From Isoetes taiwanensis (taxonomy: Eukaryota; Streptophyta; Lycopodiopsida; Isoetales; Isoetaceae): a stretch of DNA of 64,000 nt. Positions within the stretch are counted from its first letter, which is position 1. The number at the start of each line of letters is the position of its first letter. Made by a program: the position numbers and the translations under genes. Below, piece by piece: positions 11,998 through 52,503 of this stretch. The notes beneath the pieces are model-generated. The model worked only from the letters and a program-made list of their open reading frames with translations. It was not told the DNA's origin and made no database searches. The stretch spans positions 21,622,089 to 21,686,088 of the forward strand of contig JAJEKV010000005.1 of assembly GCA_021234155.1 (NCBI GenBank). The letters are read 5' to 3'.

Positions 11998-12026
11998 CAC
12001 AACAAGAAAAGGGTCATTTAGCGACG
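11998..12026 (+). repeat. left terminal inverted repeat of CACTA element
   Basis: Starts CACAACAAGA and runs into ATTTAGCGACG. Compared with the complement of the right end, mismatches fall at positions 11, 14, 17 and 27. The outer ten bases are identical. Confidence 0.9.
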
Positions 12027-12510
12027 CCAATAGCGACGTCTGACGCGCGGCGTGACGGCGTCGGCCGGCGTCGTTCGGGGACGTCGCCAGCGCGTCGTTC
12101 GCGGTCGCCGCATGCGGCGTCGCGTCGACGCTATCGCGGCGTTAGCGGCGTCGCGACGAGGCGTCGCGGACGCGGACGCCGCGTCGCGAGACGTCGTGAT
12201 GGCACGTGACACGTGAAATATACACGTGGAATATACACGTGGAACATCACCAAAATCCACGCGTGCCGTAAAAGCCACGTGTATACGTCGCATGCGACGT
12301 GACACGTGGAATATACACGTGGAATATACACGTGGAAAATACACGTGGAATATACACGTGCGTAAAAGCCACGTGTATACGTCGCATGCGACGTGACACG
12401 TGGAATACACACGTGGAATATACACGTGGAAAATACGAAAATCCGCGTATAGAAAATCCACGTGGCAAAAAAAAAAAGCCACGTGGATACGTCGCATGCG
12501 ACGTGTAGGG
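12020..12510. repeat. left subterminal repeats with nested palindromes
   Basis: First comes a very G+C-rich part built of gcgacg/cgtcgc words (12,020-12,200). Then come three copies of a unit that starts gccacgtg(t/g)atacg at 12,274, 12,368 and 12,478 (spacing 94 and 110). Each contains the palindrome GTCGCATGCGAC next to ACACGTG cores, followed by repeated (aa/ta)tacacgtgga. In En/Spm the subterminal regions bind TNPA at multiple short motifs; by position these are candidates for such sites. Open frames across this block are repeat artefacts. Confidence 0.8.
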
Positions 12511-12570
12511 GAAAAAAATAAAAATAAAAATAAAAAATATATTTATATAAAAAATATAAATATAAAAATA

Positions 12571-12700
12571 TTTTTAAATAATCACAAAAGTGTTTTTATA
12601 TTCATATTTTTAAATAGTCACAAAATTATTTTTATATTTATATTTTTAAATAATCACAAAAGTGAATTGTATTTATATTTTTAAATAATCACAAATGACT
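12571..12700. repeat. four tandem copies of a ~36-bp A+T-rich unit
   Basis: The phrase tttttaaatarTcacaaa starts at 12,571, 12,607, 12,643 and 12,678. It lies between the subterminal repeats and the 3' end of the TNPA-like gene, so it could hold that gene's polyadenylation region. Confidence 0.75.
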
Positions 12701-12794
12701 CGTTAAGAGGAGTATCCACCCTTTTAGCCTAGAGCTACTCTCTCTCAGATTCAGTGGAGTAGTCATCCGAAAGTGCACGTAGTTAGAGGGCGCC

Positions 12795-14536
12795 TCAAAC
12801 CCGTCGCCACCGCGGTTTGCGATTGGATGGCTCTCCAGCGACGTTTGCAGATCCCTCGCCGCCCCCGAGCCGCCCCATGTCATGCTCTAGACCTTCATTC
12901 ATATCCGCCACTGCTTCCTATAAAAACCAAAAGAATATGGCGTTAATGTAGTTCATAGAATTATAATAATTTTCTACAACGCACCCCCGCATTCCCGCGA
13001 AGTGGGAGAGTTCCCTCGTCATTATAAGCGTTGATACAGATAAATGACTCCCGTTAAAGTGGATACTTGTACGTGCTGCTTGTTAGGGGCAAACCCGTAT
13101 AGATGTTCCTATGACAATATAACGAGTATTAGCTAGTGACATTTAAAGTTCTTATTAAAATTAATGTGAACTAATATAGCTCTTACGAATCTATAGAGAA
13201 ACCCTTTTCGACCGCCGGAGCCCAAATGAGACGCCTTTCGGTCACTTTTAGTTGCTTTGTCGGTCCGAGCTCTATGTTTGCTTTCTGGATCCTTTGCACG
13301 TTCGAATGCAATCTGATTGCAAGGCACACAACATTATCACAAGTTAAAGTGAACGAATGACAAAAAAAAATAAGAAATACCTTGATATCTTCCTTGTGGA
13401 GATTAAGTGGTTTAGGGACTTTTGACCAATCGCCTCCTTCTTTTTCGCAAGTCTGCTTCAGTTCCTTGACCACATGGTGCCTTTGACATAAATCGATAGA
13501 TCAACGCCATATCAAAATAATAAAAACAAGACTATGACTAGGTCATGTACCTCCTTTTTCGTATAAGCTCGCCCATCATCGAAGTGAGCTTCTTCCAGTT
13601 AAACGCCTTTGCTTTTTCTATCTCTGGGAAACTCTGTTTCATTTTATTTTTGACGCTCTCTATTTCGCGTTGGTCATAAGCGCCAGGCCACTCCCCTATA
13701 CCGCGGGGAGGCCATAAACGAGAGATATTATTTGTGACCGCGTCCCTCAGTGTAGTATAAAAGACACTTCCCTCATCATCCTTCTTAGGAAGAGCATCCC
13801 TGAAGCATAAATGGTGGGTATATAAAAGCGTGTTTATGTCTACAGAGTCAATATACATATCCCGTCCGATTAAGAACCTTTTGAGCACTTTACAATGTAT
13901 TCTAAGTGAAGAGAATGAACAAAACAACAAATTTAGATGACAAAGTACTAATATTTAAGGTTGATATCTTAAATAATATGTTCACATAACTTACATCAAA
14001 AAATTATTATTAATATGATAGTCGGGTATATTAGGGGCCAAATCACCCTTGAGACTTACGTGTCTAAAACAAAGCGAAATGGACGCTCTTCTTCGGTGAC
14101 ACGTGGGCGTCGTCGGGATCCTTCCCTCTCCAAGTCAGGCGAGCGACCATGTTCTTCGGATCCCGAACCCTGTGATGATCGTCGCGATCTTGAACGTTGT
14201 GAGTCTGTTGCTCCACTACTTCTTGACCTGGGAAGTAATGAGAGAATGAGCATCTTTAACATGCTGCAACCAAAGAAATGTTTGGTACGTAGTGGATATA
14301 TATTTACTGTTGAAATCTTCCTCCAAGTTCCTTGCATTAGAAAAATCTGTTCCCGTCTCTTGCCTAGAACGGGAGTCCATACTACGTCTAGCATTCTCAA
14401 TATTCTCGCGAGAACGTGGAGGTAGATAATCAACACTATGTCGATTTGGGGAATAGGAGCGGGGAGGCTGCCTAACTAGCGTTGGTGTCAAAGAGGCAAA
14501 ATATCTTTGCAATTTGGTCTCTCGGCGGGGAGACAT
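12795..14536 (-). CDS. TNPA-like (Ptta/En/Spm-type) CACTA gene, six exons recognised
   Basis: A spliced minus-strand gene. Exons: 14,536-14,060 (starts MSPRRETKLQRYFASL, Ser/Arg-rich, ends ERPFRFVLDT); 13,901-13,551; 13,480-13,381; 13,312-13,187; 13,108-13,073 (36 nt, EHLYGFAPNKQH); 12,917-12,795 (to TGA). Every junction I checked from 14,060 onward is GT..AG and keeps frame: donors GTAAGT, GTACAT, GTATTT, GTAAGA, GTACAA. The middle exons carry a charged region (IEKAKAFNWKKLTSMMGELI). The fourth recognised exon has an R-x-K...H...GRKGF block that resembles the 'K.NRAKL...H..G.KSF' core of Ptta/En/Spm proteins. The family's role is binding the subterminal repeats and regulating transposition. 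Within the first exon the frame changes near 14,300, which may be a small unrecognised intron or a 1-base shift. Further 5' exons may exist. Family assignment rests on that core and the position next to an end. Confidence 0.65.
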
Positions 14537-14834
14537 GTTTTGCGGAAGGCGGGGAAGGCGGGGAGCTGGCGGATATCATGCAAAAAAACAATTCATTTAT
14601 TTATTATTTTTATAAAAGCTATCTTAATACCCAAACCCTTTGGTGTAGTGATAGGTGGAGGTTGGCGTCTTGGAGGAACATCAAAGACGATTGCCCCTAC
14701 CTCGTGGAGTCCTCCTCCTATTTTCTCTAAACTCGTCCCTTTCCTCTACACAACAAATTAAAACTCCATGCATAAACTCACATACCTAATTAGAGGGTAA
14801 AGCGATAATAAAAACTATATAAATACTTACCTTA

Positions 14835-14895
14835 CGTCTTGCTCATTCTCCGCATGCGATTGCGATTATTACCTCTATTCATCGCCGAGAAAAAG
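14835..14895 (-). CDS. possible 5' exon of the TNPA-like gene
   Basis: Minus strand: acceptor TTTTGATCTAG at about 14,906, then a frame giving MNRGNNRNRMRRMSK (ATG at 14,882-14,880), ending near a donor-like GTAAGGTAAGT at 14,838-14,828. It is very basic, as expected for a DNA-binding N terminus. A TAA lies at the junction if the second GT is used; use of the first GT avoids it. Linkage to the downstream exon is inferred only. Confidence 0.3.
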
Positions 14896-15049
14896 AGCAC
14901 ACCTAGATCAAAAGAAATTGTGAGAGAAACATTTGATAACCATGAATGATATTGGTTGCAATAATAGAATGATACCAAACCATAGAGATGAAAAATAGTA
15001 TTTTTATGGTTCGAAATGTGCCACTAATGAGCCCCGGCAGACTTACTGC

Positions 15050-15165
15050 AGTCTTGACCGTCTTGACCGGGGGCGGAGGGGGAGACGCATAATGCCATGA
15101 ATATTGCATCAGCAGAAAGAGGGCCACAATGAGGAAAACCGCTAAGAATTGAGCCTCCGCCATGA
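15050..15165 (-). CDS. small membrane-anchor exon, function unknown
   Basis: Minus strand ATG opening a 39-codon exon: MAEAQFLAVFLIVALFLLMQ is a single strongly hydrophobic helix. It is followed by a proline run (ASPPPPPVKTVKTA) and then a perfect donor, GTAAGT, at about 15,045. The next good acceptor is at 14,906, before the basic exon described above. It might be the first exon of the TNPA-like transcript or a separate small signal-anchored peptide. I do not recognise it. Confidence 0.35.
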
Positions 15166-15359
15166 CTATATATATTAATTTGAACATAACGAGAATTAGC
15201 GAGAGAAAAGCTTTGAACAAGTGTCTTTGAATAAATACCTAAATTTATATTCTTATCTTCTTATTTATATTAGAAAAGTATCTCGTATATATGTATGGGG
15301 TGCATATCGAACTCTAGGTTGCCATATTATCAGGCCATGTATCATGTCATACACCGAAC

Positions 15360-15600
15360 CCTAAATTATCCCACGTGGCATTTTTAGTGCCACATCATGA
15401 AACCCTACGTCGCGTGTGGCACATCATCAAACCCTAGGTTGTGTCACGTCGCGACTTCCTATTGCCACATCATAGTAAGTGCCATGTCATCAAACCCACA
15501 ACTGCGTGTGCCACATCATCAAACCCTAGATTGTGCCACATGGCATTTACAATCTAGGGTTTGATGATGTAGCACACAAAACCTAGGGTTTGACGTCTGT
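15360..15600. repeat. short repeats (gccacatcatcaaaccctag) with a 25-bp hairpin
   Basis: Four degenerate direct copies of gccacatcatcaaaccctag lie between 15,365 and 15,534. The last copy faces an inverted copy: the arms at 15,510-15,534 and 15,549-15,573 pair in 24 of 25 positions around a 14-nt loop. Another inverted partial copy follows at about 15,577-15,592. It sits upstream of the TNPA-like gene, so it could be regulatory or a small RNA source. Confidence 0.75.
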
Positions 15601-15753
15601 AGCGACACTTTATCTACAAGTTATGATTAATAATTTATTTACCATTAATAATAATTTTTTTGATTAATAAATTACTTTTTTCATTAGTAATTTTGACTAA
15701 AAAACATTTATTGGTTGCAACAAGCCTCAAATAGGAAGACAAAATTATATTAA

Positions 15754-15923
15754 TCACTTCTTGCAAGCATTTAACAGTAGCTTAGCCATCTCAAGTGGAT
15801 CACCACACTTCATATGTCGTCTCTCTCTCACAACTATATCAGAAGAAAGCCCTGCTGTTTTGAACACATCGACGACGCGAGCAAGGTAGCCCTTAAGCTC
15901 GAAATATCGCCAAAAGGCTATTT
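15754..15923 (-). CDS. possible terminal exon of the kinase-like gene
   Basis: After an acceptor-like AAATAG at about 15,920, the minus strand gives an uninterrupted ~54-codon frame (FWRYFELKGYLARVVDVFK ... KLLLNACKK) ending in TGA. It lies downstream of the kinase-like frame in the same orientation, but 0.75 kb separates them and no matching donor was identified. The composition is protein-like; function unknown. Confidence 0.3.
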
Positions 15924-16679
15924 TTTTGGACATTTGCATTTTTTTTCACTATTGTTGAGTAGGATCAATTAGGAGTGGTGCCAATAAGATATCGCCACCT
16001 TGTCTACGAAATTTTCTCCCTCCACTCATAAGTTAGCCTACATTACTAAATGATGGATTCTTGGATTCGCCCCCATGTGAATTTTATTCTTGGTAATTAT
16101 TCTAAAATCGCCCCTTAACCCCCTAAAATCATGTAAAATTAATAGAATTCTATTCTTGGTAAGTCTTTTAGAATTGTCATTTACCTCCAAAAAAAAAAAA
16201 AGGAAAGGGAAAAAACCATGCATGTTATATGGATTTCATGATCCGGTTCCAACATCCAGGTATGCAATCCTGGAGTATTTTTGCTTTTGGTCTGTTGTTT
16301 ATCCAATCTTAAAAAGATGACTGAAATCAAATCGGTTTGTGCTTGTCTACCATAATATGCAATCATGCCTCGGCTAAGTTTGTGTACTTGTTGTTGTTTA
16401 GCCCTTAGTGTGGAGCTATTGAGATTTACAAACATATGCCAATGTCTGATAACATGTATATTTATTATGTGAGCATTACGCTTACAACTGTATACGGACA
16501 TAACAAATATATATTGTACTTGAGAAAAAAGTATATATTCCATTGCTTGATGGATGAAAGATTCGCCAAGGTTGCTACAACTCAAATTGAAGCCTGAAAC
16601 AAAATCGCCAACATAACTAATCGAAAAAAGCTAAGATTCGCCTCACATTCTAAATTACACCTATAAAAATTTGGGCTTA

Positions 16680-18106
16680 AGGGCTACCCTGGACGCGAGC
16701 AATAGATGGGCGATCCATGTGCACCAGCTCTCTATCCATCATCATTTGGACCTTCATATGTTGGATGATGTCCAATGTGCTAGAGTATCGGTCGGTTGGG
16801 TTTATCTCAACACACAACCCCATAAGTCGCATTGCCTGGACAAAATCAAGGAGCATCTCGTAAATGTAGCCCAGGGAATATATGTCAGATATCTCATGCC
16901 CCCATGATGCTTGGTCATCTGATGATGATGTAAAAACTCTCTTCTCCCACCAAGGATATCGCACCGTTCCATCTTGTAGTGTATAACGGCTCTTCAATTT
17001 GGGCATTCGCTCCTTGCAAAAAAAACGGAGGGCCGTGTCCCAATCACCAATAGCCACCCACACATTTGTAAGGGAGTCATCAAAATGGAGTTTGACCCTT
17101 TTGCAATTGAGCTTTGTGTGTGTCCAACCTGGAGCGTGGATGGCATAGACTCCTTCTGCAAGAGCGAGAGCTATTTCTGGGACGTACTTATACACGAGTC
17201 TCATTTTGGCTTTCTACTCCGCACTTATCTTCATATCAGCCCTTCTTGGAGCACTATGCATTGCATTTGACCATCTCCTATAAGAAGAGAATTGGCGGAA
17301 GATGGTCAAGTAATTGCAAAGGTTCCTCCATTCATGAATGGCAGGGACTACCATTGGTCCCCGTGGCTCATCTCCACAAAAGACCCGGGGGGCAAGTCCA
17401 GGGGTGTGGCCAATCTTTGGACTTGGGCTCTTGAAACGGATATACTTGTCGACCAACAACCATGATGCAGCTCTATCTTGGCCTCTCCACACAATGCCGA
17501 TTATAATAATCATCTTGATTAAAGTACAGGTTCCCAAGATCTGGATTTGGTATATCTGGCAGTCTTGTTTACTACCAATGCACTTTACAACTCCAACAGC
17601 ATCCACAGGAATGTTGTCAATAAATGCAGCACATTTATCATGAGCATGTAATGATAATCTAGCCCCCGCACCAATAGAGCTCCCACCATGGATAAGACTA
17701 TCTAACTCCTTCACCGCTCATCATTGAGACCGCCATCGGCCATCTTGTGATCTTTCGCGTGAACCTTTGCACTTCGCCGCGAATTAGCCCATCGTCCCAC
17801 GTATGCCTCGGCATAGGGGCTCATAAGTGGCACTTTATACTTAAGTAGCATCCTCAATTCGGCTCGGGGATTGCAAACCCAAGACTTTAAGTTCTTTCTC
17901 ATCATATCTTCCAACTCGGACTCATGCTCGGCCACCTCCCACATAATTCGGACCGACATTCTTTCTCAACCGATGCTACAAAGCGGTTAATTCGATCATC
18001 GGGTTTGCATATGTCGTTAAGATTCGATGCATGCATATTTGATTGATGAGGATCGCCTAATTTCACTAAGCATCTCTTGTCCCCATCGAGGCCATTTTAT
18101 GCCTAC
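16680..18106 (-). pseudogene. protein-kinase-like gene, broken by one stop and one frameshift
   Basis: Minus strand. After an acceptor (TTTTTTTTGTAG, about 18,107) a frame starts NGLDGDKRCLVKLGDP, shifts once near 17,930, and continues to about 17,715. From 17,714 to 16,677 a single frame runs about 345 codons, interrupted only by one TAG at 17,214-17,216. The second half has C-lobe features: an 'IALALAEGVYAIH' helix; a catalytic-loop-like GWTHTKLN (HTK in place of HRD); VAIGDWDTA at the DFG position; and ISDIYSLGYIYEMLL, matching 'D.YSLG' of subdomain IX. The altered HRD and DFG motifs suggest a pseudokinase even before the stop. No Gly-rich loop is evident. Host-type kinase sequence inside a transposon suggests capture. 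Confidence 0.6.
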
Positions 18107-18299
18107 AAAAAAAAACAAAATAATGAATACAAAAGCCAAGCATGCACAAAGTAAATGCAACATAATCTGACAATATCAAACATGTATGCGAGACCATATA
18201 ATCATTACTTATAACACGCCCTATGGCGACTAATACCTTATCCGATCCCGCCCCAAAAGCAAGAAAAAAAAGAAGAAGAAACAAGAAAAACTAAATAGG

Positions 18300-19947: not shown

Positions 19948-21237
19948 ACCAGTTCATTACAAGTTAGTTATGCCATCCATGACAAATAGCTTTAGGGAGC
20001 AGAAAAACCAAAACAAAAACCCTTCTAGAATCTGGCAAGTCACAGGGTTTACGTCCAATGCAATCTTAGACCAAGTATAACGTCCAGCGAGCCAAGGTCA
20101 ACCCCAAGTACAACGATCCCACAAACTCCATTCCTTTGACCTTAGCTAACCCTTTGACCTAGACCTTCTCCGAAAATTTCGAAAATTGGGCTGTGTGATG
20201 GAGATGGATTAGGAATCCAGCTGGCAAAAAATCAGAATTTATTTTCGTACAATGCATTAATTGCGAATTTATGAATGTCTTGCCACTGCAAAAGCGCCCC
20301 CCGACTTCTACTTGCCACATCGGGAGGAGGACAGGCCCAAACTCCGCTCCGTCTGTTCCCCTTGCTCCGTATTCTCGGCTGCAGCTTCTCGGCCAGGTCC
20401 CAAGTGCAACAGACCAAGTCTCGGCCCCCAAAACGCAAACCCTTCTAGAACCTGGCAACCCACAGGGTTTACGTTTTGGAGGCCCTCTCCTTGTCAGATT
20501 CGGGCGGGACCTTGCGCCGTGACTTGACGTGGAGTGGGGGTGTTGATGCTAGAGCACGGACCCTAAAATCCCCCGAAGCTGCTTGCCCGAATTTCCTCTC
20601 CCAAGGCCCTGGGGGCCGGAGGCGACCTCCCTAGGGGCTGCGATTTGACTCTGCGAGTGGACTCGAGCGTCGGCGTTGCCCTAGGGACCAAGTTACGTGG
20701 CGAAGACCAAACTTCGGCCCCCCAAAACAAAACCCTTCTAGAATGCGGCAAGTCCGCGGGGTTTTACGTTTGGAGGCCCTCTCCTTGTCGATTTGGTGGG
20801 GACCTTGCACCGTATCTTGACATGGAGTGGGGGTGTTGGCCTTGAGAGTCGGGACCCTAAACTCCCAGGAAGTTGCTTGCCCGAACCCAGTTCATTACAA
20901 GTTAATTATGCCATCCATGTCAAATAGCTTTAGGGAGGAGTCCGTTGAACAAGGGCATTCTCTCTATCTATATGCCTTGATCTTTGAAACACAACCATCA
21001 TCACAAGCAACCAAATCTAACCCCCAACCCGCAAGACTAGTCTTTTGCTTTTCTCAGAATCATTTATCTTCATTCTAGTAGTTATGATGCTTTTTCAGTA
21101 ATCATTTATCTTCATTCTAATAGTTATGATGCTTATATTCTCAATGCAATCTTAGACCAAGTATAACGTCCAAATGAGCCAAGGTCAACCCCAAGTACAA
21201 CGATCCCACAAACTCCATTCCTTTGACCTTAGCTAAC
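19948..21237 (+). repeat. divergent leading part of the array
   Basis: The first unit differs from the rest. The ccagttcattacaagtta(g/a)ttatgcc segment occurs at 19,949 and again at 20,887. A segment with gaccaagtataacgtcca and caaccccaagtacaacgatc occurs at about 20,070 and again at about 21,150. The cttctagaa...ggtttacgt segment appears three times (about 20,027; 20,444; 20,733). This edge records rearrangements predating the homogeneous copies, as expected for an array edge that escapes homogenisation. Confidence 0.7.
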
Positions 21238-24200
21238 CCTTTGACCTAGACCTTTCTCGAAAATTTCAAAAAATTGGGTAGTGTCTTTGGAGATGGGTTA
21301 GGAATCCGGTGGCAAAAAATCAGAATTTATTTTCGTACAATGCATTAATTGCGAATTTATGAATGTCTTGCCTTTTGCCAAAAGCCCCGACTTCTACTTG
21401 CCACATCGGGAGGACAGGCCCAAACTCAGCTCCGGGCCCCTTGCCATTTCATTTGCGGCTGCGACTTCGGCCAGGTCCCAAGTGCAACAGACCAAGTCTC
21501 GGCCCCCAAAACGCAAAACCCTTCTAGGACCTGGCAACCCACAGGGTTTACGTTTTGGAGGCCCTCTCCTTGTCGGTCAGCGGGCTGGGACCTTGCGCCT
21601 GGCGTGACTTGACGTGGAGTGGGGGTGTTGGCCTTGAGCCGCGGACCCTAAAATCCCGGGAAGGCGCTTGCCCGAATTTCCCTCTCCCCCAGGCCACGGG
21701 GCCGGGCAGGCGACCTCCCCTCTCCGGAATCGCGATTTGACTCTGCCAATGGACTCAGAACGTCGACGTTGCCCTGGGGACCAAGTTCCGTGGCCAGAAG
21801 ACCACCCGACCTCCAAGAAGCGCCAAAGTAGCTCACTTCCATCACACTCGTAGTCAATTGGCCTAGGATGTGGATGCGGGATACTGTCGTGGAGGGCGTG
21901 AGTGTTTCTTTCTTTTGCAAAACCGACCTTGTAACTTGCTCCCTAGGGTAATTTCGCCATTCCGGACGATTTGACAGGGTCGATTTGCCATTCCGGAGCC
22001 TCCCCGGTGCCCGAACGACAAGACACTGCGGTTTCTACAAGGCCGACCTCAGGACGCCCCGCGGTTTGACAAGTTCTCCCGGACCGATCTGGAATCTTTT
22101 GGGCCTTCCCGAAGAGGGGCCCCTGAACGGAGGATCCAACGGTCGGATAGGGGAACCGGGCTCCGGGAGGGTGGTCATTAGGGGGAGCGCTGCCAAGAAG
22201 GGCTGCCTCGGGAACTTTTTTGGATCCCGCCTCTTGGGGTCCGGACTCTCCCCTGTTGTGAGGGATCCCTGCAAGGGCCTGGCCTCGTTTGACTTGGGGA
22301 AGGGTGCGGCTTCGGTTGCCCCTCAGGAACGGGCTGCCCGACCGCTCTAATGCTAACCCTTTGACCTAGACCTTCTCCGAAAATTTCGAAAATTGGGCGG
22401 TGTGCTGGAAATGGATTAGGATTCCAGCTGGCAAAAAATCAGAATTTATTTTCGTACAATGCATTAATTGCGAATTTATGAATGTCTTGCCACTGCAAAA
22501 GCGCCCCCCGACTTCTACTTGCCACATCGGGAGGAGGACAGGCCCAAACTCCGCTCGCCGGTTCCCCTTGCTCCGTATTCCTGGCCTGCAGCTTCTCGGT
22601 GTCCCAAGTGCAACAGACCAAGTCTCGGCCCCCAAAACGCAAACCCTTCTAGAACCTGGCAACCCACAGGGTTTACGTTTTGGAGGCCCTCTCCTTGTCA
22701 GATTCGGGCGGGACCTTGCGCGTGACTTGACGTGGAGTGGGGGTGTTGGATGCGAGCACGGACCCTAAAATCCCCCTAAGCCTGCTTGCCCTGAATTTCC
22801 TCTCCCCAAGGCCACGGGACCGGACGGGCGACCTCCCTCTCGGGAATCGCTGATTTGACTCGCCAATGGACTTAACGTCAACGTTGCCCCTGGGGACCAA
22901 GTTCCGGGCTTTTAAGACCACCGACATCCAAGAAGCCAAAGTAGCTCACTTCCATCACACTCGTGAGTCAATTGGCCTAGGATGTGGATGCGGGATCTTG
23001 TGGAGGGCGTGAGTGTTTCTTTCTTTTGCAAAACCGACCTTGTAACTTGCTCCCTAGGGTAATTTTGCCATTCCGGACGATTTGGCAGGGGTCGATTTGC
23101 CATTCGAGCCTCCCTGCCCGAACGACAAGACATCTGCGGTTTTACAAGGCCGACCTCCGGGACGCCCCATGGTTTGACAAGTTCTCCCGGACCGATCTGG
23201 AATCTTTTGGGCCTTCCCGAAGAGGGGCCCCTGAACGGAGGATCCAACGGTCGGATAGGGGAACCGGGCTCCGGGAGGGTGGTCATTAGCGTGCAGCCCC
23301 CCGGGGGAGCGCTGCCAGGAAGGGCTGCCTCGGGAACTTTTTTGGATCCCGCCTCTTGGGGTCCGGACTCTCCCCTCTTGTGAGGGATCCCTACAAGGTC
23401 CTAGCCTCGTTTGACTTGGGGAAGGGTGCCAGCTCGGTTGCCCTGCAACGGGCTGCCCCGACCGTTCTAATGCTAACCTTTTGACCTAGACCTTCTCCGA
23501 AAATTTCGAAAATTGGGCTGTGTGCTCGAAATGGATTAGGATTCCAGCTGGCAAAAAATCAGAATTTATTTTCGTACAATGCATTAATTGCGAATTTATG
23601 AATGTCTTGCCACTGCAAAAGCGCCCCCCGACTTCTACTTGCCACATCGGGAGGAGGACAGGCCCAAACTCCGCTCCGTCAGTTCCCCTTGCTCCGTATT
23701 CTCGGCTGCAGCTTCTCGGCCAGGTCCCAAGTGCAACAGACCAAGTCTCGGCCCCCAAAACGCAAACCCTTCTAGAACCTGGCAACCCACAGGGTTTACG
23801 TTTTGGAGGCCCTCTCCTTGTCAGATTCGGCCGGGACCTTGCGCCGTGACTTGACGTGGAGTGGGGGTGTTGACGCCAGAGCGGGGACCCTAAAATCCCC
23901 CCGTAAGCTGCTTGCCCCGATTTCTCTCCCCAAGGCCCAGGGGGACGGACGGGCGACCTCCCCTCCCCGGGACGGATTTGACTCGCCAATGGACTCGAAC
24001 GCCGACGCTTGCCCCGGGGACCAAGTTCCGTGGGCTGTAAGACCACCCCGACCTCCAAGAAGCGCCAAAGTAGCTCACTTCCATCACACTCGTAGTCAAT
24101 TGGCCTAGGATGTGGATGCGGGATACTGTCGTGGAGGGCGTGAGTGTTTCTTTCTTTTGCAAAACCGACCTTGTAACTTGCTCCCTAGGGTAATTTCGCC

Positions 24201-41952: not shown

Positions 41953-42490
41953 CATGTTCACCCAACTAAGAAATGAGTTTTAAACGTTGCCAGAACGCCG
42001 TGATGCGCGACAATACGCCGTGATCGCCGCTTAAACTATTTTTATTTTTGTTGTGTACATGTTTGATACTGGGGCATGTTTGAGCCTAGACAATGCTTGA
42101 GCCTAAGAGGCTTGTTTGAACCTAGGTAGCATGTTCGACCCTAAGGGAAATGCAACTACACATTCAACGCCCAGAGGCTCCTCATGCTTCACTCTATGTA
42201 TTTGGACTTGTTCACCCTACAAAATACCATTATTATTATCTGTTTGAAAGGTAGAGCAGTGATCCACAACAGAAAGCTAGTGGATAGCATCAAATTAAGC
42301 AATGATCAGGTTAACTTGGTGGTGGCACTAGTTTAAGGTTAGAGAAAATCGGAAGTAACTAAGATACCATTGAAGACTCTTTGCATGTTCTAGTCTAGAG
42401 GCAATGCTTGAGCCTATGTGGCTTCTTTTTTGAGCCCATGTTCCAGCCGCTCTTATTATTCCTCCGATATAATGTATACCAAAAGGGGGA
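41953..42490. other. spacer with short tgtttgagccta repeats
   Basis: From 42,057 to 42,150, and again at 42,400-42,445, short degenerate copies of (g/c)atg(t/c)ttgagccta occur. A g-rich run (gggggagggagggggaggg) lies at 42,484-42,503, next to the LINE tail. No coding sequence recognised. Confidence 0.5.
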
Positions 42491-42504
42491 GGGAGGGGGA
42501 GGGA

Positions 42505-42570
42505 GAAAAAAGAATTGAATTGAATGGGTTTTTATTGCACACGAAGACCAATAGACATAGCCTATCGTAA
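42505..42570 (-). mobile_element. LINE 3' end
   Basis: On the minus strand this reads ...ggtcttcgtgtgcaataaaaacccattcaattcaattc. The same ending occurs at 59,271-59,330 (ggtcttcgtggatgataaaaacaaattcaatttaattc), just downstream of reverse-transcriptase sequence. The attc-type microsatellite tail is typical of plant LINEs. Here only the 3' tip is present, so it is probably a 5'-truncated insertion into the CACTA element. Confidence 0.6.
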
Positions 42571-42639
42571 GGATTGCACCGAGGATGTGCATAATATTTG
42601 ACATATAGAATTTAATGATCGCCTCCTCTAGGTGCTAAC

Positions 42640-45600
42640 TAGAGTCGCCATTGTTAGCATTGCCAACATTTGTATTAAAATGCCCGAAGTACATCTCAGA
42701 TTTCGTGGAATTGCTCGTGTAAGATGCCGCATGAGAGCCGGTGGTCCAACCTCTTGATGCTCGCTTTCCGGGTGAGTTTGAATGCCTTGATCCGCCGAGG
42801 GCTCTTTCAGACGTTATTGACTCCTCTAGCACAACACCTTGGAATATTGGGCGCCTCCTGTAGTTTGTATGATAAACCACCATGTTGGGTCTTGTCGATC
42901 GGTAAAGAAAAAAATCTGGTCAAAGAAGCCGGACGTGAGATTGATATTGATGGTCTAAATTTTGAAGTGGATATGTATGTGTGTACCGCTCACGCTTGTC
43001 CCGAAGGACAAGCCGCCTCACTACCGTGGTACATCTTGCTAGAGTTGACAAATGAAAAGCCACTTGTTCTATCATACTTTTTATCAGAGGGCCCGCCCCT
43101 TAATTGAAGGTCAAACCAATCGACATCTAATATGAAGGTCTTAAAATTGCCACCAACATCCACCTCCATTATAGTCTTTAACCTCCCGACCCAATCACGT
43201 GTGGCTTCCTCGACGATACGACGGCAACATTTTGATTGAAACTCCATCGTGAATGATGCCATGACTGCGCAGCCACAAGTCTTCCCGCGGTATGTCAAGA
43301 GAACTCACACGATAGTGGGTCCCATGCCACCATATCGGAGGGAGTAAGATATATACCGGCCAAAAGCACCATTAATGTCAATAGATACAATAACATCAAA
43401 AGAAAATACTCGATTTCGACATCAACATAATTTGTTGCAACTACCTTTTCATGACACCTTGTGCGTATGCCCATTCCAGTAGGCGTAATATACTCCCCTT
43501 GTGATATGCATCGGGCCAAAGCCTCAGTAGTACCCATTCTCTTTTCCATCTTGTCCCGATAAGGGTTCATATCCATCGTGGTACGGGGGCTCGCCTATTA
43601 TGTCGCCTCCATTCATGCCTCTTCTCTTCCATTTCTTCCTTTGCGCTTCTCATAACGAGCAATCCATTTTGCCATTGGTGCCGAATTGTAAAGAAGAAAT
43701 TGATTAACCTTAATGATCATATCAAAGCGGAAATGACTTCGTGATACCATTGCCTTCTCGCCACTACCCCCACAATCTTCGCCCCTTCATCACTCCATAA
43801 GCGTAGGTGCATCCGATGTACGGCATGGAAATATATTCTCGTCATATAGAAAAGTGACTCTTTCGCAAGCCATCCTCTCGCCATACTACCTTCGGGACGT
43901 GCTCTTTGACGCACCATATCCTTCAATACCTTCATAAACCTTTCCAAGAAAAACATCCATCCGCATGTACAGCCTTCATGAAGCCCACTTCCTCAATAAG
44001 ATGTACCAAAAGATGGGTTTGATGCCAAGAAAGCTCAGAGGGAAACTCCTTCTCCAACAAGCAACATGCCTCTGCCATTTTCACTTTCATCTCTTCAATT
44101 TCGCTTTTCGGGATAGTTTTTTTACACATCCACCTATGAGGTCCAAACAAAAAACTTAGCCACAAATAAAATAGACGGGGACCACTAAATCAACATGGGT
44201 AACAACCTTATGACCTTTGATAGGGCACTTATTGCCTCCAATGGTCCTTTGTCTAAAACTCCCCTAAAGGTCGTGGGCATGAAGAACCTGCATGATCCAA
44301 ACACCAAATATAAGTTATGGGTTACATTTTATAGTAGTGCATATATATGTGGACTTCAATTGCTTACATGCAAGAACTTATGCTACCATGGGACTTTAAA
44401 CCAGCCAGCCCCCACTACTTGTGAATGCGGTTCAAGAATGATTGCATGTAAACGGGGTTGGTGTTCTAAGGGCCCTTAAATCATCATAAATAGCTCGATG
44501 GTCAGCCCTAGCAATAACCCATTTTGCCGAGGGAAGTGGTTGCCCTTCACCGGATCCATGCCTCTTTCTTTGTATTACTTACCTTAAGGTCCATCCCGGC
44601 ATTTGTTGTGTCTTTTTGACCAAATACATGCTTCCATAAAGAGTTTCCCACGCTCTTGAAGATATGCATCGGGTCTAAAAGGTGTTGAATCAATAGGTCG
44701 GTCCAATATGGTAGTCTATAAAAACACTTCCCTTTTCATATTGGCAAAGAAGACTTCCTCCTCCCCGCTTCCTCGCCACCACTCCTCATCCTCACCGCTT
44801 CCAGGGTCGGCCACGACCTCCTCACCGCAGTGCCCCACGGATTTCCCTTCATGGATTTTCCCCTCTTCCCTTCTTATCCCAACGCCACCCCATTCTCAGA
44901 TGGTAATTTGCTTGGTGGTTCCAGATAGTCTACATTGCCACCGAATTGTGCACGCCAAGGGGTGGGTGGAGCGCAAATACTTCCTAAAACCCTCGTGATA
45001 CTACTTTCTTCAGATGCTTAGAGGACGGTAAGGCAACTTTTCCCCACATATCATGCAAGGGAAGTGCCCCGGATGTCTTAAACCCGTAACACTTAAGAAA
45101 ACCTGTGAAAGTCATGCATAGTCCACAATAGTATACCTCTAAGATTAAAACGCCATTTTTATGGGCATCAGAGACCAATACCGCGGTTCCACAAAGGGAG
45201 TAACTCATCCACAATTATTCTTAGGTACACATCTAAATTACTTGGTTTTTCTTCCCGTGTATCAATAAAGTCATCATAATGTGCCCACTCTTCATCAACA
45301 ACCATGGGGTATGTTGTAGTTCACTATCATCATCGGCCATGTAGACCATGCAACCGATTGTGTACCATATGGGTTTACGCCATCGGTGGCCAGGCCCAAA
45401 CGACGCTACGTGGTTCTTTTCCAAAGTCGCCATGTCGCGATCGACATGCTTCCAAGCTGCGACCGCCGCCGGACTCGTGATCACACCATCACTAGATGCA
45501 TGTGTAGCCGTGGAAGTCCATTAGGCTAGCCAATGTCTTGCAACGAACATCAACTTTAACCTATAGAATAAATTATAGGCAAACATATAAGCACCGAAAA

Positions 45601-45850
45601 AATAAGTGAATTTACAACTATTTGTAAGAAGTGGTGATGCATATACCTTGGGATTATTGGAAAGTGTCAATAACCTTCTCGAGGTACCGCTTTTTCCCTT
45701 TAGGGTCATTCCCTGTTCTGCTTCATTACATACGAGACAATGAGTGGACTTCTCATGCTCTATGGGGATAGAAGATCATACAATCATTTGGACATGCATG
45801 TATGACTTTATATCCAAGGCGGCCGCTTGAATCATTTTCTTAACTTGAGA
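42640..45850 (-). pseudogene. tnp2-like: tnp2 (TNPD-type) CACTA transposase with DUF4218 and DUF4216, decayed
   Basis: Minus strand, N to C. IHACPNDC at about 45.8 kb with a following CLVCNE and KKRYLEKVIDTF, the Cys-rich front of Transposase_21. Then LGLATDGVNPYGTQSVAW (about 45.38 kb), NLDVYLRIIVDELLPLWNRG (45.24-45.18 kb) and LLDPMHIFKSVGNSLW (about 44.67 kb), all core signatures. YDDLRALRTPTPF follows at about 44.47 kb. DUF4218 spans 44.16-43.72 kb (HLLVHLIEEVGF, then RQRARPEGSMARGWLAKE). DUF4216 spans 43.24-43.0 kb (WVGRLKTIMEVD, VDWFDLQLRGG, SGFSFVNSSK). Stops (for example TGA and TAA after WNRG) and several frame changes break it. This is the element's catalytic protein family; as assembled it could not make a full transposase. 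Confidence 0.9.
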
Positions 45851-46049
45851 TCCGGTTCGGTAGGCATATTGTTCTTCTCTCGAAGGATCTTTCGCGGCAA
45901 TAACTCGCGATCTAAGAGTGGTAAGATAAAAGATGGAGATGGTGGTAAGATAGAAAGACTTGATAAGTATGTCACCTCAATAGAGCGTAGACACTTGCAT
46001 TGCTCCAATTTTGAACTTGGTTTGGAGATTGAGAATTAGCAGTGCACGC

Positions 46050-46230
46050 CGACAAACGAGAGGTTCGAGACGCAGAAATAATCGCAAGCTCGCCGATAAC
46101 AATAGGGTCATCGCCAAGACGCACCAATCCTCAAGGGTATCCCACATCTTCTACCATATCCTCTCCACCACCATCCTCGACATCATCTAAATCAATATCA
46201 GGTAATTCTTGAAGAGCTGCAACATATCGA
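46050..46230 (-). other. acidic coding-like segment upstream of tnp2
   Basis: The minus strand gives DIDLDDVEDGGGEDMVEDVGY, an acidic stretch of the kind often found near the N terminus of tnp2-type proteins. It may be the start of the tnp2 gene or the end of a neighbour. Confidence 0.3.
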
Positions 46231-46579
46231 AGCATCGGGCTCGCCACTTAAAGACTTCGCTCGGTTCGCCAATAGTTTCATCCTCTTCATGTTGATCGAT
46301 GCAATATCTTCATATTGGTGCGCCTCGCTTGAAATTCACGATTTATAGGTTTCCCTTTGCCCTGTAACTTAGAACTAATGGATCGGGATGGAGACCGCCT
46401 CAATGAGTTCATTAAACAGAGTAACGATAACCATCATGTCAAATAATGTAATAAGTATAAAATACATACAACCATTTGTATAGACTCAAGAATGACAAAA
46501 CATATTAAAAAAAAAAAAAAACCTCTTTATTCCTTTTTTTTTAGTACAACAATACTATTGTTCCATCTCAAATGGGAGA

Positions 46580-46850
46580 GGTCTATCATAGCTTATAGTT
46601 GATGAATAACTCATCTCCAATGTTTATGCTTTTAATGGCACACACCATGATATATCCGCTTTTTACAGATCTTGTAAAAATCTTCCTCCCTCCTTGACAC
46701 TCTAAAAATTCACAATTGCATCGCTTCACGGTTGTCAATAGAACTGTTGATGAACCCCGCAATATTGCCATGAACCCCGGGCCAACCATCAATAAACTTC
46801 AACTCCTCATCACATGCCCCCACAGCCTATCGACGCAAAGATTGAATTCA
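46580..46850 (-). pseudogene. SET-domain fragment (histone-methyltransferase fold)
   Basis: Minus strand. DEELKFIDGWPGVHGNIAGF runs into INSS, matching the 'N(I/V)ARF(I/L)NHSC' motif of SET domains with the His/Cys replaced. After one 1-base frame change near 46,715 it continues CNCEFLECQGGRKIFTRSVK and then AIKSINIGDELFINY, matching the C-terminal 'I..GEEL..DY' motif that helps form the active site. It ends two residues later at TGA. The upstream part of the domain (to about 47.3 kb) is only faintly visible through stops. SET domains methylate lysines, mostly on histones. This is a fragment and unlikely to be active as read. Confidence 0.65.
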
Positions 46851-47688
46851 TTCCATAAATCCTCATACGCCAAGCATATTTAGTCAAAGTTTGCCAAGTT
46901 TTCCAATCGCATTCTGACCTCGTGATATGGCATTAATGGAATGTGGGTATCTCGCCCACTTCTATACGCTGTAGGGAGATAAGGTCAATCCCAAATTTCC
47001 TCGACAAATGCGGCTCCGCATAATGATGTATCTCCTTCCCCAATAAGGAAATTCTTGATCCATAGGGATAGGTAAGTGCCCATCGCCACAAGCCAAATGT
47101 CTGGGGTGCCTAACAAAGGGTCGGACTAATCTTTGCAATTTTTCAGAATTTCACGCCGGGCAGTGAGGCCAAGCCGCTCTTGGGAAATGTGCGACACATG
47201 CAATGTTCTCTCATGATTGTAGCCCTTCGTGTTCTTTCACGCCAGGGAACACTCAGCGCTGAGCTGCACCCATCCACATTATTGATGAATCGGGTTATCG
47301 CTAGCGGGCCATATGCCTCTATGGACAACATTAAACCAAAATCCACATCTAGTTTGGAGGAGACATCAAGATCATCTACCTACATATTTAGATATCATAA
47401 ACATCTTGAATATATACTTAAACCGGGAGATACTCTTAAAAAAAAAAAACAAATAATAATTGTATACCAACCCGATATCCATGACGAAAGCATCGATCTG
47501 GTGGGTTGTTCAAATGTACCAAATCTTATCGATGGTCTTCAACAACCGCTCTAAGTCGCCTCTTCAGCCCCATACATCTTTTTACAATCGCGAAACTATT
47601 TTGTCCCTCCGCCAATTACAAAAGGTAAGTACTATATAATCGCACAATAGTTTGAACTACTGGTGGATAGATACAATATATGGTAGTA

Positions 47689-47727
47689 TAAACCCTAAAC
47701 CCTAAACCCTAAACCCTAAATCCTAAA
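47689..47727. repeat. interstitial telomere-type repeat (CCCTAAA)n
   Basis: Four perfect units of ccctaaa plus one variant (tcctaaa). It is too short to be a telomere; probably a repair or slippage product. Confidence 0.9.
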
Positions 47728-47734
47728 TGGACAG

Positions 47735-48060
47735 AATTGGGCTGGGACACGTAGTCCTTCCACTCAAGGTGAAGCCGAACCATGCCCTTTCCGAAAGTAC
47801 CCACCTTTATATAAGTTTCAATTTCAATAAAGATCTTTTGAGACGCTAGCCCCGATACATAGAGTCCCTCCACTCAAGGTGAAGTCTACATATGACCTTG
47901 ACTACGACACCTCAATTTTGTAATCTACATTGTACTTAGTAAGGTATGAAGGTGAGTTTGGGCCTGCACACCGGGTCCCTTCCACTCAAGGTGGAGGCGA
48001 CGTGTCCTTGACCAAAACACCTGTTTTTTTACTACTCACAAGACACGCCCTCTCCTAGTT
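47735..48060 (+). repeat. three ~111-bp repeats related to 18.7-19.1 kb
   Basis: ccactcaaggtg(a/g)agncga-type segments lie at about 47,768, 47,879 and 47,990. Each is preceded by a (g/c)tagtcc/ggtccctt word and followed by an at(g)..ccttgac-like word. The spacing is regular (111, 111). Confidence 0.7.
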
Positions 48061-48334
48061 TATATATGTCTAGGGCTACTAAATACAAGAATCAAGAACT
48101 TATATGTGACGGTTCAAGATATCCAGCCTCCCCTCGGTGGTAAGACAACATCAACTTTCTCCCGCCATCTCCAAAGGCCGATCATGCCGATGACCATGGC
48201 GATCCATGTAGGGCAAAAGAACAAGTATAAGATATGGTTAAAAAGAAGAACACCAAAGGCGCTTAGGGCTGGAAGAGGAGCGAAAAGAAAATAACAATGA
48301 AGGCCGAAAAAAAGTTGTTTATATAGAATCTTTA

Positions 48335-48720
48335 AACGTCGCGATGCGACGTGGACGCCGCCGGGCGACGAAGTGTCAACGGCCACATGCCGTCACCCAC
48401 GACTTGGCAAAGACACTGGCAAGTACGCATGACGCGGTCACACGCTCAGATCACGCCGCATGCTTACGTATAGTCAACGGGTCAAAATCCAGGTCACATG
48501 CGACCGGCAAAGACACGCGGGCAAGGCACGCACCGATGTGTCTCTCGGTTCAGACGCCACGCCGCATGCGACGATAGTCAAACGGTCAAATTCCGTGGCA
48601 CATGCTAATCTAGCAAAGTATTACGCGTGGCAAATACGCATCGGTGTGTCTTATGTTCTCAGATCGTCACATGACGCCGCATGCGACGCCCGACATTTGT
48701 CGTGACATTTGTCGGTTATG
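48335..48720. repeat. internal cluster of subterminal-type repeats
   Basis: Three copies of a ~108-bp unit (cacatgc at 48,384, 48,495 and 48,599). Each unit has a ggcaaagac/ggcaaatac segment, a g(a/t)tgtgtct-type segment and a GCCGCATGC(GACG) palindrome. The shared GCATGCGACG word also occurs in both ends of the CACTA element. It lies about 4 kb from the right end, upstream of the SET and tnp2 genes. Confidence 0.65.
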
Positions 48721-49560
48721 AAATTTATGTATACCTATGCCGCTCGAAAGCAACCTAAAAATCCGAAAGCAAGTTTTGTGTAACAACCTAAAATCTGCAT
48801 ACCTCAAAACACTTGAACATAGCTTTTGATTAGATGCATCACAGAGCAAATTGCGGATGACAGGTCGACATTTGCCGACATTTGTCGTGACGATGCCGTG
48901 TGGCATATGGCGCTTTTTAGGCAAATTTTGATCGACGCTTTGACACATGGGACATTAATGCCTTGATTTGCAAGGAGTCGCCAGAAGCAGCTTCTCCCAC
49001 TATGCCGACACCAAGTTCCTCATTCGGGATTGCATTTTGTTGTTTTTCTAAAGATGTTGGATCGAGGATATGGGAGTCCCACTTTTGACTACCCAATCTT
49101 CTCGTTGTAGAAATTCTAGGGTAAATCCATATGTCATTTCTAATTCCTTCTTTTTTTCTTTCTCCTCGATCAACCGTAAGCTAAATTATGAGCTCAAAAA
49201 ATTCGATCAACCATCTCCAACTCCATGTCCATCACTAAATTCATCTACTTTTTTCAAAATACCCATAGCACAAATAGGCCTATATAAATTAAAACAAGCA
49301 ATATTATTGTCATATCCTTATTCATCGGGCATTCATCTTCTTGATATCCATCCCGATCATATTCATCTTCTTCATATTTTTATCTTCAAATTCCATTTGA
49401 AAAACTGATTTCGTAAATCTATATCATATCATATATCCAGTTTTTGTATTCTACATCATGCTTATATACATAAGGCAAGGCTCTCAAAAAATTTCGATCA
49501 ACCATAAGCTAAATTTCGAGCTCAAAAAATTCGATCAACCAGAGCTAATCTCGAGCTCAA
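48720..49560. other. spacer with cgatcaaccataagctaaatt repeats
   Basis: Three degenerate copies of cgatcaacc(g/a)taagctaaatt(.)gagctcaaaaaattcgatcaacc occur at about 49,168, 49,495 and 49,530. Near 48,700 and 48,870 gacatttgtcgtgacatttgtcgg repeats appear. No gene recognised. Confidence 0.5.
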
Positions 49561-49589
49561 ACTACCATATTATAGTTATATCAAAAGAT

Positions 49590-50010
49590 AGAATTTAAGT
49601 TGCTTCAATACCAAATATCGACTCCAAAAAAACCAAAACTTTCTCAAGAAAGGGTGTTGCATCCTCGTGATCAACATCAGAATTTCCAGCACCGCCAGAA
49701 GGATCCCTTCACCGATTGATGTAAAATTTTTTACCTTGGATATCTCTCTCAAACTTAAAACCACATCATTCACCGCAAAATCCTTTGCCTTGACAACTGC
49801 CCAAAATTCTTTTGTGAAGACATAACTTTGGGAACTATCCCAATAACAAGATCTAAATTTCCACATGCATTGATTTTCATCTTTTTTTTTTTTTTCTCCA
49901 CAATTCCATCGCGAAGGCAAATGTGCTTTCGCTGATTTTGGAATGACGAAATAAAACAAAAAATCCAACGCAGACCGCTTATCAAATCTGTTGCCCACTT
50001 GGTTGCACAA
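49590..50010 (-). pseudogene. B3 DNA-binding domain gene fragment (RAV/NGA-like)
   Basis: Minus strand. YFVIPKSAKAHLP matches the first strand of plant B3 domains ('R.VIPK..AE.HLP'). MWKFRSCYWDSSQSYVFTKEFW then AVVKAKDFAVNDVVLSL (quoted in two parts) matches 'W.FRY.YW.SSQSYV.T+GW..FVK.K.L..GD.V.F', closest by eye to the RAV/NGATHA class. After about 49,715 the sense continues in a shifted frame (DPSGGAGNSDVDHEDATPF ... FGIEAT, stop), so one 1-base change separates the domain from its tail. Upstream, at 50.1-50.2 kb, PFDLEPCVPQKFSLEDIMLD may be an earlier exon. B3 proteins are sequence-specific transcription factors. Confidence 0.7.
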
Positions 50011-50029
50011 GCACTAAATGAAATGCCGG

Positions 50030-50690
50030 GCCTCAAGGACTTTCTTATCTAACCAATCTACACTATCTTGAGAGCCAACTCAGATCCACCACGTAAATAT
50101 CCGTGGAGTGTCTAGCATAATATCCTCTAGGCTGAACTTTTGTGGCACGCATGGCTCAAGATCAAACGGAATCCAAGCTCTCAAAAGATGACGCCGCGAT
50201 CATTTTCTATACTCCTTGCCAACCCCGATTGTTTGCACCTTTGATTGTTTGCCCTAAATCGCTTTTAAAAACAATGGGAACATGAATTGAAGGAAAAGTA
50301 GTACCATCCGGTCAAGCCATCGCGGGTACATATACCATGAAGATCGAGAAGAATAAATTGTGTTGAACTTTGTAAGCACTACATTGTGCTTACTACATAT
50401 GGAACCATTTGTTCTCAATTACGTAAGCCATCCGAAGAGGATGAAAGAAGTAGCCCCCGTGCTAAGGGCACAACCGTTTAACATTAGGTGGTTTAGAATT
50501 ATTCCTCGATGAAGCTCAATCCATTAGAAATGCTCACACTAAAAGTTCATGTGCTTGCCGGGCTTAAGGGCACAATGAAGATGGTGCCTTTCGAACATGA
50601 CCTTCTATTTTACACATATGTCACATAATGCCACATATACGAAAAGTTCTAGAATGTTCTAGAAAGTTTTAAAATATAAGAGAATCTTGG
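50030..50690 (-). other. possible upstream part of the B3 gene, otherwise no gene
   Basis: A protein-like minus-strand frame at 50,100-50,200 ends in a stop after FTWWI. It reopens as VGSQDSVDWLDKKVLEARHF in line with the B3 frame. The remainder (50,230-50,690) shows nothing I can name. Confidence 0.3.
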
Positions 50691-50696
50691 GTGAGC

Positions 50697-51590
50697 CTAA
50701 GGAATCCTTCTAGAAAATTGCATCGTTGTAGAAAGTTCTAGAATGAATGTTGCAGAGAATACACTTATTTTCTTCCCAAAGCATTTTGCTAGATGACCAA
50801 TTAAAATATTTTGGTTCAACCAACTCCACAATTCTCTTTGATTTTCGATGAACAAAACTTGTCCAAGAAGGCAAAGCCTCCACAACCTCGTAATGGCCAT
50901 AATGAAGAAATTAAAAAGACAGCTTAAGAGATTTAAAAAAGCGATGATTTTTGTCGCCAGATGTTGTGACTGTTTGATCATACAATCGATGCAAAGAAGA
51001 ACCCATAAAAATCTTGGCGCCAAAACGGAACAAGTTCATGAGTCATGAAGCTAAAACAACTGAAAGCATGGCGTTAAAAACCGCACCAAAGGATCTGATT
51101 TTTGGCATGTAGGAGCGTAAGAGAGGTCTGCTTTTTTGCAGATGGGTGTTCGTGAAGAACCCCCAGCCGATGTCGGGCAAGCTCAACCGCCTTTGTGATC
51201 CCTAAGCTCCGTGCTGAAGCCCATTTTCCTTTGCACCATGACATGCTCTACTTTGAAGACTTCCAAGGTAAACAAACCGGCGCTTTAGATACTTTTATCG
51301 CCATAGCAAATGTGAGCTATGTTCCAATTCCACTTTCCATGTATGGATCTCCAAACAAGGCCATCAACAGTGTGTAGCCACATAGTATCTCGCTTTTCAA
51401 AATCCTCATCAATGGGGTCGGCTTCATATGGAACTTGTGCAATTGAAACGCAAATTCCTCCACCATCATATATCGTAAAATCATCCAGACGCTTGGTGTA
51501 AAGTTGCAAGTTCAAGCATTGCCGCCGATTCCAACCTTGATGTTGATCTTTCAACTTCCATAGTGCCATTAGAATTACTTGTATACCCAA
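50697..51590 (-). pseudogene. unidentified coding-like sequence, multi-part
   Basis: Minus strand. At 51,590-51,285 a 101-codon frame has protein-like composition (DDFTIYDGGGICVSIAQVP, MWLHTVDGLVWRSIHGKW), with Trp and Gly spacing faintly like kelch or F-box-associated repeats. Further shifted pieces continue to about 51,180 (FTLEVFKVEHVMVQRKMGF). A 108-codon frame at 51,023-50,697 may be another part. I do not recognise the family. Confidence 0.35.
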
Positions 51591-51959
51591 AGATGAGATT
51601 TTAGATCATAACCTTCTTCCCCCGTATTGACGTGATCCAAAGCCCCCCAAAGCTCTCAAAGCCCCCAAAACCATTTTTCCGCAGCTCGCTTCAAGAGTCT
51701 AGATGAAGGAGGTAAACCTAGAATCCGGCCATCAGACGCCTGACAAGTTGGGCCGCAAGTCATATTAAACACTATAATGCTTCAAGCGGACAAAAGGTAA
51801 AAGTGTGGGATTTTTCTTGTGTTCTTGCACAAATTTTAAGGCTTTATCCCGTTTTTTCTCAAAGAACAATGATTGACAACAAGCCTATTGTCAAGTTACC
51901 TTCAAGGATTGTAAACTTGAACAACTAGATTTTGACACGCATAACGCTTTATAATGAAC

Positions 51960-52490
51960 AATTTATAGCGTAGCACATCTATCGCGGATGATGCATGCGC
52001 AGTGCAACACGCTTTAAATGAAGTCGCAGTTGGTCGCCGAGTCTTTTCGCATGTGCATCAATCGCATGTATTGAATTTGTAATCCTAAAACCATTAACCT
52101 TCATGTATAAAAAAATATACGCCACATGCACCACCCACGCCACATATACCGCATCGACGCGGTCATATACGCCACATATACATACCGACGCGGTCATATA
52201 CGCCACATGTAATGTATTGACGGTCATATAATGCACACATACGCCACATACCACACATATGTCATATATACGACGCCGCATGCGACGCCACGCCAGAACA
52301 TCCACCGGGCGCGACACCCGCCACCGCCGCCCACCGGGCGCAAGCGCCCACCGGGCGGTGTCGACGTCGCGACTACACGCCGATGCGACGCGGTTCCGCG
52401 ACGCGGACGCCGCTTTGACGCCACACGGGGATTTATTTTGCGACGCCACGCCGCATGCACGCCGCAGAAGCCCACGCCGCTAAATGTCCA
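51960..52490. repeat. right subterminal repeats of the CACTA element
   Basis: Repeats of (gac)gcggtcatatacgccacat(ata) at 52,135-52,265, then a G+C-rich block with gacgccg(c)atgcgacg words, including GCCGCATGCGACG at about 52,272. This mirrors the left end, which is G+C-rich outermost with short repeats inside. The 156-codon minus-strand frame here is an artefact. Confidence 0.75.
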
Positions 52491-52503
52491 TTCTCTTGTT
52501 GTG
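52475..52503 (-). repeat. right terminal inverted repeat of CACTA element
   Basis: Its complement begins CACAACAAGAGAATGG and continues into ACATTTAGCGGCG, pairing with the left end. The last element base is 52,503, just before the second TTC. Confidence 0.9.

Follow-up and report, generated by a model that had tools for sequence, protein, structure and literature searches.

Large CACTA transposons, a CACTA transposon with a captured satellite, and SET domains carried by Harbinger and MuDR transposons are all known already (PMC2613891, PMC8978399, PMC12730594; statements here and below follow the parts of these papers that were available). The soybean CACTA element Tgmt* measures 20.5 kb (PMC2613891), and a CACTA element of Chenopodium quinoa, 16,523 bp long, holds a captured satellite array of 5,550 bp made of 32.5 units of 171 bp (PMC8978399). 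SET has been reported from HarbingerS and MuDR transposons of oomycetes and TET/JBP from EnSpm elements of fungi (PMC12730594). Here we analyse a stretch of 64,000 nucleotides of the lycophyte Isoetes taiwanensis, referred to as the window (assembly GCA_021234155.1, contig JAJEKV010000005.1, positions 21,622,089 to 21,686,088 of the forward strand), in which a CACTA-class element of 40,506 bp occupies positions 11998–52503. That this is one element with both ends and a 3-bp target duplication is well supported. It very probably belongs to a CACTA (EnSpm) family that is large and dispersed and that carries, besides a transposase gene, an internal array of 1.1-kb units and an exon with a putative SET domain. 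A literature search, with subscription journals mostly outside its scope, found no SET-bearing plant CACTA/EnSpm element and no CACTA element described in Isoetes or lycophytes; the word 'cacta' has 0 occurrences in the main text, as available, of the genome papers of I. taiwanensis (PMC8566536) and I. sinensis (PMC10541799).

Results

Termini and dispersed copies

A sequence-only reading of the window had proposed a single 40.5-kb CACTA transposon, and the termini it reported are exact. The terminal inverted repeats are identical at 23 of 26 bases and TTC stands on both sides, as that reading had described (Table 1). Both ends have the CAC...GTG form of CACTA/EnSpm elements and start CACAACAAGA, which is to say with CACAA and not CACTA; what had been taken for a variant terminus is present in all seven copies read. 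Short subterminal repeats lie at both ends, the left and right words being different. Searching the genome (1,658,258,908 bases in 1,110 contigs) with the left-end pattern at up to 3 mismatches gave 960 matches in 1.66 Gb and none for the backwards control, and on these counts a chance origin of the ends was set aside. Right ends are among the 960 matches, since exactly 3 bases separate the right-end variant from the left one.

Eight loci were cut around matches to the end pattern, of which five were extended from the left end (C79, C101, C104, C116 and C168) and three were not (L005, L006 and L008); a sixth copy, C1027, was picked by a SET match together with a left end. Other copies sharing both ends, the check attached to the sequence-only reading, were thereby found: all six extended copies have a matching right end, at 35.7 kb in C79, 32.6 kb in C101, 34.2 kb in C1027, 5.0 kb in C104, 7.5 kb in C116 and 7.9 kb in C168. 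The case that was to speak against a single element, ends belonging to separate elements, was tested on the same six copies, in each of which the matching right end was found. Perfect 3-bp duplications flank five of the six (TCT in C79, ATA in C101, TAA in C104, TGT in C116 and AGA in C1027), and C101 and C1027 can be aligned to the window element end to end over most of its length. Two of the lengths include nested insertions, one of about 4.4 kb in C101 (L017–L018) with CACAATAG on both sides and one of 11.1 kb with direct end repeats of about 600 bp in C79 (L009–L014). The window element, described as a single 40.5-kb transposon, belongs to a family, and a large share of its length comes from an internal array that varies in copy number from one member to the next.

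The internal array

About half of the element is array region, at 20145–41951 with partial units at its left edge, a feature that the sequence-only reading had missed. The first 17 units in the window are 83–93% alike and the incomplete last one 77–81%; G+C content is 56–58% across 22–42 kb as against 37–44% over most of both sides. The array is present in all six other copies, hence in 7/7 with the window, across two diverged subfamilies. Counting near-complete units only, and setting aside the partial ones also present, the window has 18, C1027 16, C79 9, C101 5, C116 and C168 3 each, and C104 1. Since units of the window and of the three short copies (C104, C116 and C168) are on average only 73–75% alike, the array predates the split between them.

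A 28-base word from the unit, which recovers 32 of 39 known units, matches 6,016 times in the genome and its control not once. The array is accordingly most likely a family component and not a one-off capture. If the 32/39 recovery holds genome-wide, the genome would contain about 7,300 units, roughly 0.5% of its length. The right boundary of the array was recovered at 40 places among the 40 scored of 696 candidates. The 100 listed of the 6,016 unit-word places form 33 clusters, the longest spanning 12.1 kb, and 56 of 67 spacings between words agree with a whole number of steps of about 1.115 kb. These 100 places include no long free satellite block. At one place (C31:312223–324237) the unit words lie about 3.6 and 4.8 kb apart instead of 1.1 kb, perhaps reflecting another arrangement of the unit.

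Among the 48 units of the four long copies, 69% are closest to another unit of their own element, whereas shuffling gives 28% on average and 50% at most; the figure rises to 73% when only columns away from CG/CHG contexts are used. With within-element nearest relatives above chance, part of the change in the array happened inside each copy. The earlier suggestion that the element moved as one unit rather than growing in place is for this reason not shown at its present length.

The transposase gene region and its putative SET exon

In C101 the minus strand carries, in Pfam order, TAD (26.7 bits, cut-off 27.7), SET (27.5 bits, cut-off 22.4), Transposase_21 (146.2 and 40.9 bits, cut-off 28.6), DUF4218 (41.3 bits, cut-off 27) and a weak DUF4216 (15.4 bits, cut-off 30.6), the first and the last scoring below their cut-offs. 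The pieces in the window keep the same domain order (Table 1). A TNP2 transposase (Transposase_21) is identified in the family through C101, the piece in the window lying below the cut-off. Where the sequence-only reading had listed tnp2, TNPA and subterminal repeats as all present, tnp2, in decayed form, and the subterminal repeats are confirmed, but TNPA is not: neither it nor Transposase_24 gave a Pfam match in the five left-half open reading frames of the window, out of ten scanned in all. TNPA-type DNA-binding proteins are poorly conserved (PMC2613891). Pfam matches of the left-half frames to CTC1, Phage_Coat_A and TPR_2 fall below their cut-offs and were rejected.

The SET exon lies upstream of the transposase domain. 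Its 273-residue frame finds at least 146 matched stretches in the genome (141 scored of 1,943 candidates), a few places giving two. A SET match stands downstream of the array boundary, on the expected strand and within 16 kb, at no fewer than 14 of the 40 boundary places, in 8 of them at 4.35–4.70 kb; a fifteenth place has a match upstream only. A boundary place without a SET match means little, the window's own broken copy not being among the matches listed.

Thirteen SET exons were compared, and by identity to C101 they fall into three lineages: A, to which the window belongs, at 95–97%, B at 56–61% and C at 44–48%. All 13 match PF00856 at E ≤ 0.01, and the four whose bit scores were read (27.5, 31.4, 28.0 and 29.2) all exceed the cut-off of 22.4. 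Transposase_21 was found downstream of SET in every lineage (C101 and L039 in A, L029 in B, L036 in C). The putative assignment to SET is based on Pfam together with residues that the alignment shows to be conserved. AG precedes the frame in 13/13 copies; because these copies are related and the frame was delimited by stops at both ends, this supports a splice site there weakly. The ratio of nonsynonymous to synonymous substitution rates (dN/dS) is 0.24 between A and B and 0.28–0.29 in three pairs within C; dS is saturated in the four A–C and B–C pairs, and eight close pairs give 0.36–0.77. This pattern supports, with the caution that open copies were chosen, a gene that would be selected in the transposing lineage and decay in individual copies.

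Base differences and the assembly

Differences between array units lie mostly near CG/CHG contexts (0.197 as against 0.069 elsewhere, gaps included), and they include A within CAG, G–C exchanges and many small gaps. The tnp2 region of the window differs from the majority of three copies at 17.8% of positions near CG/CHG and 3.65% elsewhere; the corresponding values are 3.8% versus 1.2% in C1027 and 6.0% versus 1.0% in C101. The genome was assembled from R9.4.1 reads with Guppy v3.1, racon and pilon (PMC8566536), and the differences resemble miscalled bases at methylated positions, to which real deamination may have contributed. Given this bias, the broken frames of the window tnp2 do not by themselves show that the gene is dead. 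Divergence was rejected as a means of dating the array, since the changes cluster at CG/CHG and some are not made by deamination; this serves as a warning for dating repeats in this assembly, where ages are unsafe (window 42383–47600 and 21889–41951).

Surroundings of the insertion

The flanks rejoin to TATAGGCTTTTAAGTTC followed by TACCACG. The last 17 bp of the left flank (TATAGGCTTTTAAGTTC, at most 1 mismatch) recur uninterrupted at 52839, 53237, 53349, 53733 and 54127, at five places and not the four of the sequence-only reading; the match to an uninterrupted site holds for no more than these 17 bp, and farther out the left flank is inverted. Twenty bases of left flank have no match elsewhere in the window. 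Because 11763–11987 matches 52972–53195 in inverted orientation, the target was the inversion junction of the flank repeats: the insertion lies about 10 bp from that junction within a repeat cluster, and the target is not a plain repeat copy. The empty-site check, run as a search of the whole genome for the 28-bp rejoined site with up to 2 mismatches, returned two places, the window's own left junction and a 2-mismatch site on C963, and no clean empty site. The target duplication is upheld, and the evidence for an empty site is short.

By eye, the flank repeats contain words like those of tRNA promoter boxes, which would suggest a short interspersed element. ARAGORN in its bacterial setting reported no tRNA in the window, and no Rfam family reached its gathering threshold there.

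Three further observations concern neighbouring or internal sequence. A long open frame at 1–1203 on the plus strand of the window resembles, by eye, pentatricopeptide repeats. A plant telomere-like repeat (TAAACCC, 5.6 copies) lies within the element at 47689–47727 and also in C101. C101 and C79 share a stretch of about 460 bp, absent from the window, with a frame that by eye is like part of an SNF2-type helicase (L018:478–810, plus strand).

Table 1. Positions of the element's parts and of its flanks in the window
Feature	Position	Strand	Evidence or remark
Left flank, inverted copy of right-hand repeats	11763-11987	-	95% over 226 bp, against 52972-53195
Target-site duplication TTC, left copy	11995-11997	.	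read from sequence
Left terminal inverted repeat CACAACAAGAAAAGGGTCATTTAGCG	11998-12023	+	read from sequence; genome pattern search
Left subterminal repeats (CACGTGGAATAT-type)	12191-12505	.	
Nested insertion of about 820 bp, inverted ends GGTAGCCCTTAAGC	15879-16697 (limits approximate)	.	absent from C79 and C101
Partial array units with duplicated flank	20145-21888	.	
Tandem array, 18 units of about 1.12 kb, last incomplete	21889-41951	.	
tnp2 C-terminal piece	42993-43304	-	DUF4216-like only by likeness to C101
DUF4218 in two frames	43720-44189	-	40.1 bits; 26.7 bits, just below cut-off 27
Transposase_21 piece	45236-45520	-	21.2 bits, below cut-off 28.6; intact in C101
Broken SET exon (frames 46589-46798 and 47146-47379 among them)	46589-47379	-	SET 18.3 bits, below cut-off; whole exon in C101
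Right subterminal repeats (31-bp unit, CGCCACAT-type)	52137-52208	.	words unlike those of the left end
Right terminal inverted repeat, reverse complement CACAACAAGAGAATGGACATTTAGCG	52478-52503	-	same right end in 6 other copies
Target-site duplication TTC, right copy	52504-52506	.	read from sequence
Right flank, tandem cluster of related repeats including uninterrupted site copies	52504-54382	+	

Discussion

Our results suggest a model for how the Isoetes element is built and maintained. By its class, a TNP2-type transposase would cut at the CACAA...TTGTG ends and insert with a 3-bp stagger, in keeping with the anatomy of the termini and target duplications. Full-length members, as read, run from left to right through subterminal repeats, a left internal region, the array at a fixed place and a minus-strand tnp2 with the SET exon upstream of its transposase domain. 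The array is inherited with the element, and its copy number changes within copies, as the range of 1–18 near-complete units and their partial clustering by element indicate; unequal exchange may be the cause. The SET exon would be kept by selection on the transposing lineage, a step that the dN/dS values support, and its product might methylate histones or another protein and so help against silencing or in the choice of target.

Several points weigh against this account. The tnp2 gene of the window is broken, and C168 lacks a perfect 3-bp duplication. Twelve of the 13 SET exons compared were matches chosen for their open frames, C101 being the other. TAD turned up in lineage A alone, with a score slightly under its cut-off, and Pfam recognised nothing in the two frames upstream of SET that were scanned in lineage C. 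In each of the three lineages the SET frame reaches a stop at much the same position, so that SET could either be spliced to the transposase or be made as a separate protein. A fold prediction of the exon reached a predicted local distance difference test score (pLDDT) of 35, and sequence searches of the PDB with it returned no SET chain.

Of the competing explanations, the one that survives best is that nanopore assembly, with bases miscalled at methylated cytosines, accounts for part of the array's length or of the divergence between its units. We regard this as possible, at odds well short of even. The concentration of differences near CG/CHG in both array and window tnp2, the kinds of change involved (A within CAG, G–C exchanges, small gaps) and the reads and software behind the assembly (PMC8566536) all agree with it, whereas true deamination would likewise raise C-to-T changes in these contexts. 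The array itself is not an artefact, because the window contains no N and arrays recur in seven copies.

It is unlikely that the SET exon is an idle fragment captured from the host. CACTA elements commonly capture gene fragments (PMC8978399), stops occur in many of the 146 matched stretches, and catalysis is putative. However, three lineages, at 44–61% identity to that of the window, have the exon in the same place with open frames, and the four deeper pairs with finite dS give dN/dS of 0.24–0.29. An improbable alternative for the array is that a host satellite was captured once by the window copy, for which the C. quinoa element offers a precedent (PMC8978399) and which would allow for unit copies outside elements, only 100 of the 6,016 places being listed; yet the array occurs in 7/7 copies, the diverged short subfamily included, and the listed places form clusters of at most 12.1 kb. 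Finally, a composite of two elements, or of one element grown by unrelated nested insertions, with outer ends that match by chance, is very hard to credit and is largely refuted, since the differing subterminal words and the single nested insertion of about 820 bp that might suggest it are outweighed by the alignment of C101 and C1027 over most of the element and by the same end pair in all six other copies.

A dispersed CACTA family with its own array and SET exon remains the preferred reading. A satellite inside such a family is a direct route by which satellite arrays could be seeded across a genome. A bolder extension, which we put forward tentatively and think rather doubtful, is that a lycophyte CACTA lineage may have kept a SET methyltransferase in its transposase gene through deep splits and thereby sets its own chromatin state, the array being a selected part, for example a platform for chromatin or for binding, and not ballast. 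How transposons escape silencing is a question on which those with chromatin-modifying enzymes can throw light, and a SET exon that, judging by dN/dS, is kept under selection in three plant CACTA lineages provides a testable case.

The Isoetes element resembles Tgmt* in being large and in its imperfect terminal repeats, 3-bp duplication, asymmetric subterminal repeats and tnp2 gene (PMC2613891). It differs in that Tgmt* has 13-bp CACTA ends, not CACAA, and a DNA-binding product, for which the five left-half frames scanned in the Isoetes element gave no match; the available part of the Tgmt* description makes no mention of a long internal array or of SET. With the C. quinoa element it shares an internal satellite array (PMC8978399), but the Isoetes units are of about 1.12 kb, and the array is longer and present in 7/7 copies across two diverged subfamilies. 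The HarbingerS and MuDR elements of oomycetes and the EnSpm elements of fungi are likewise DNA transposons with a chromatin- or DNA-modifying enzyme (PMC12730594). Unlike the Isoetes case, the oomycete SET domains belong to other superfamilies and the fungal EnSpm elements carry a dioxygenase. In Isoetes the putative SET domain is an unexpected passenger of a plant CACTA transposon, an association without precedent in the literature searched.

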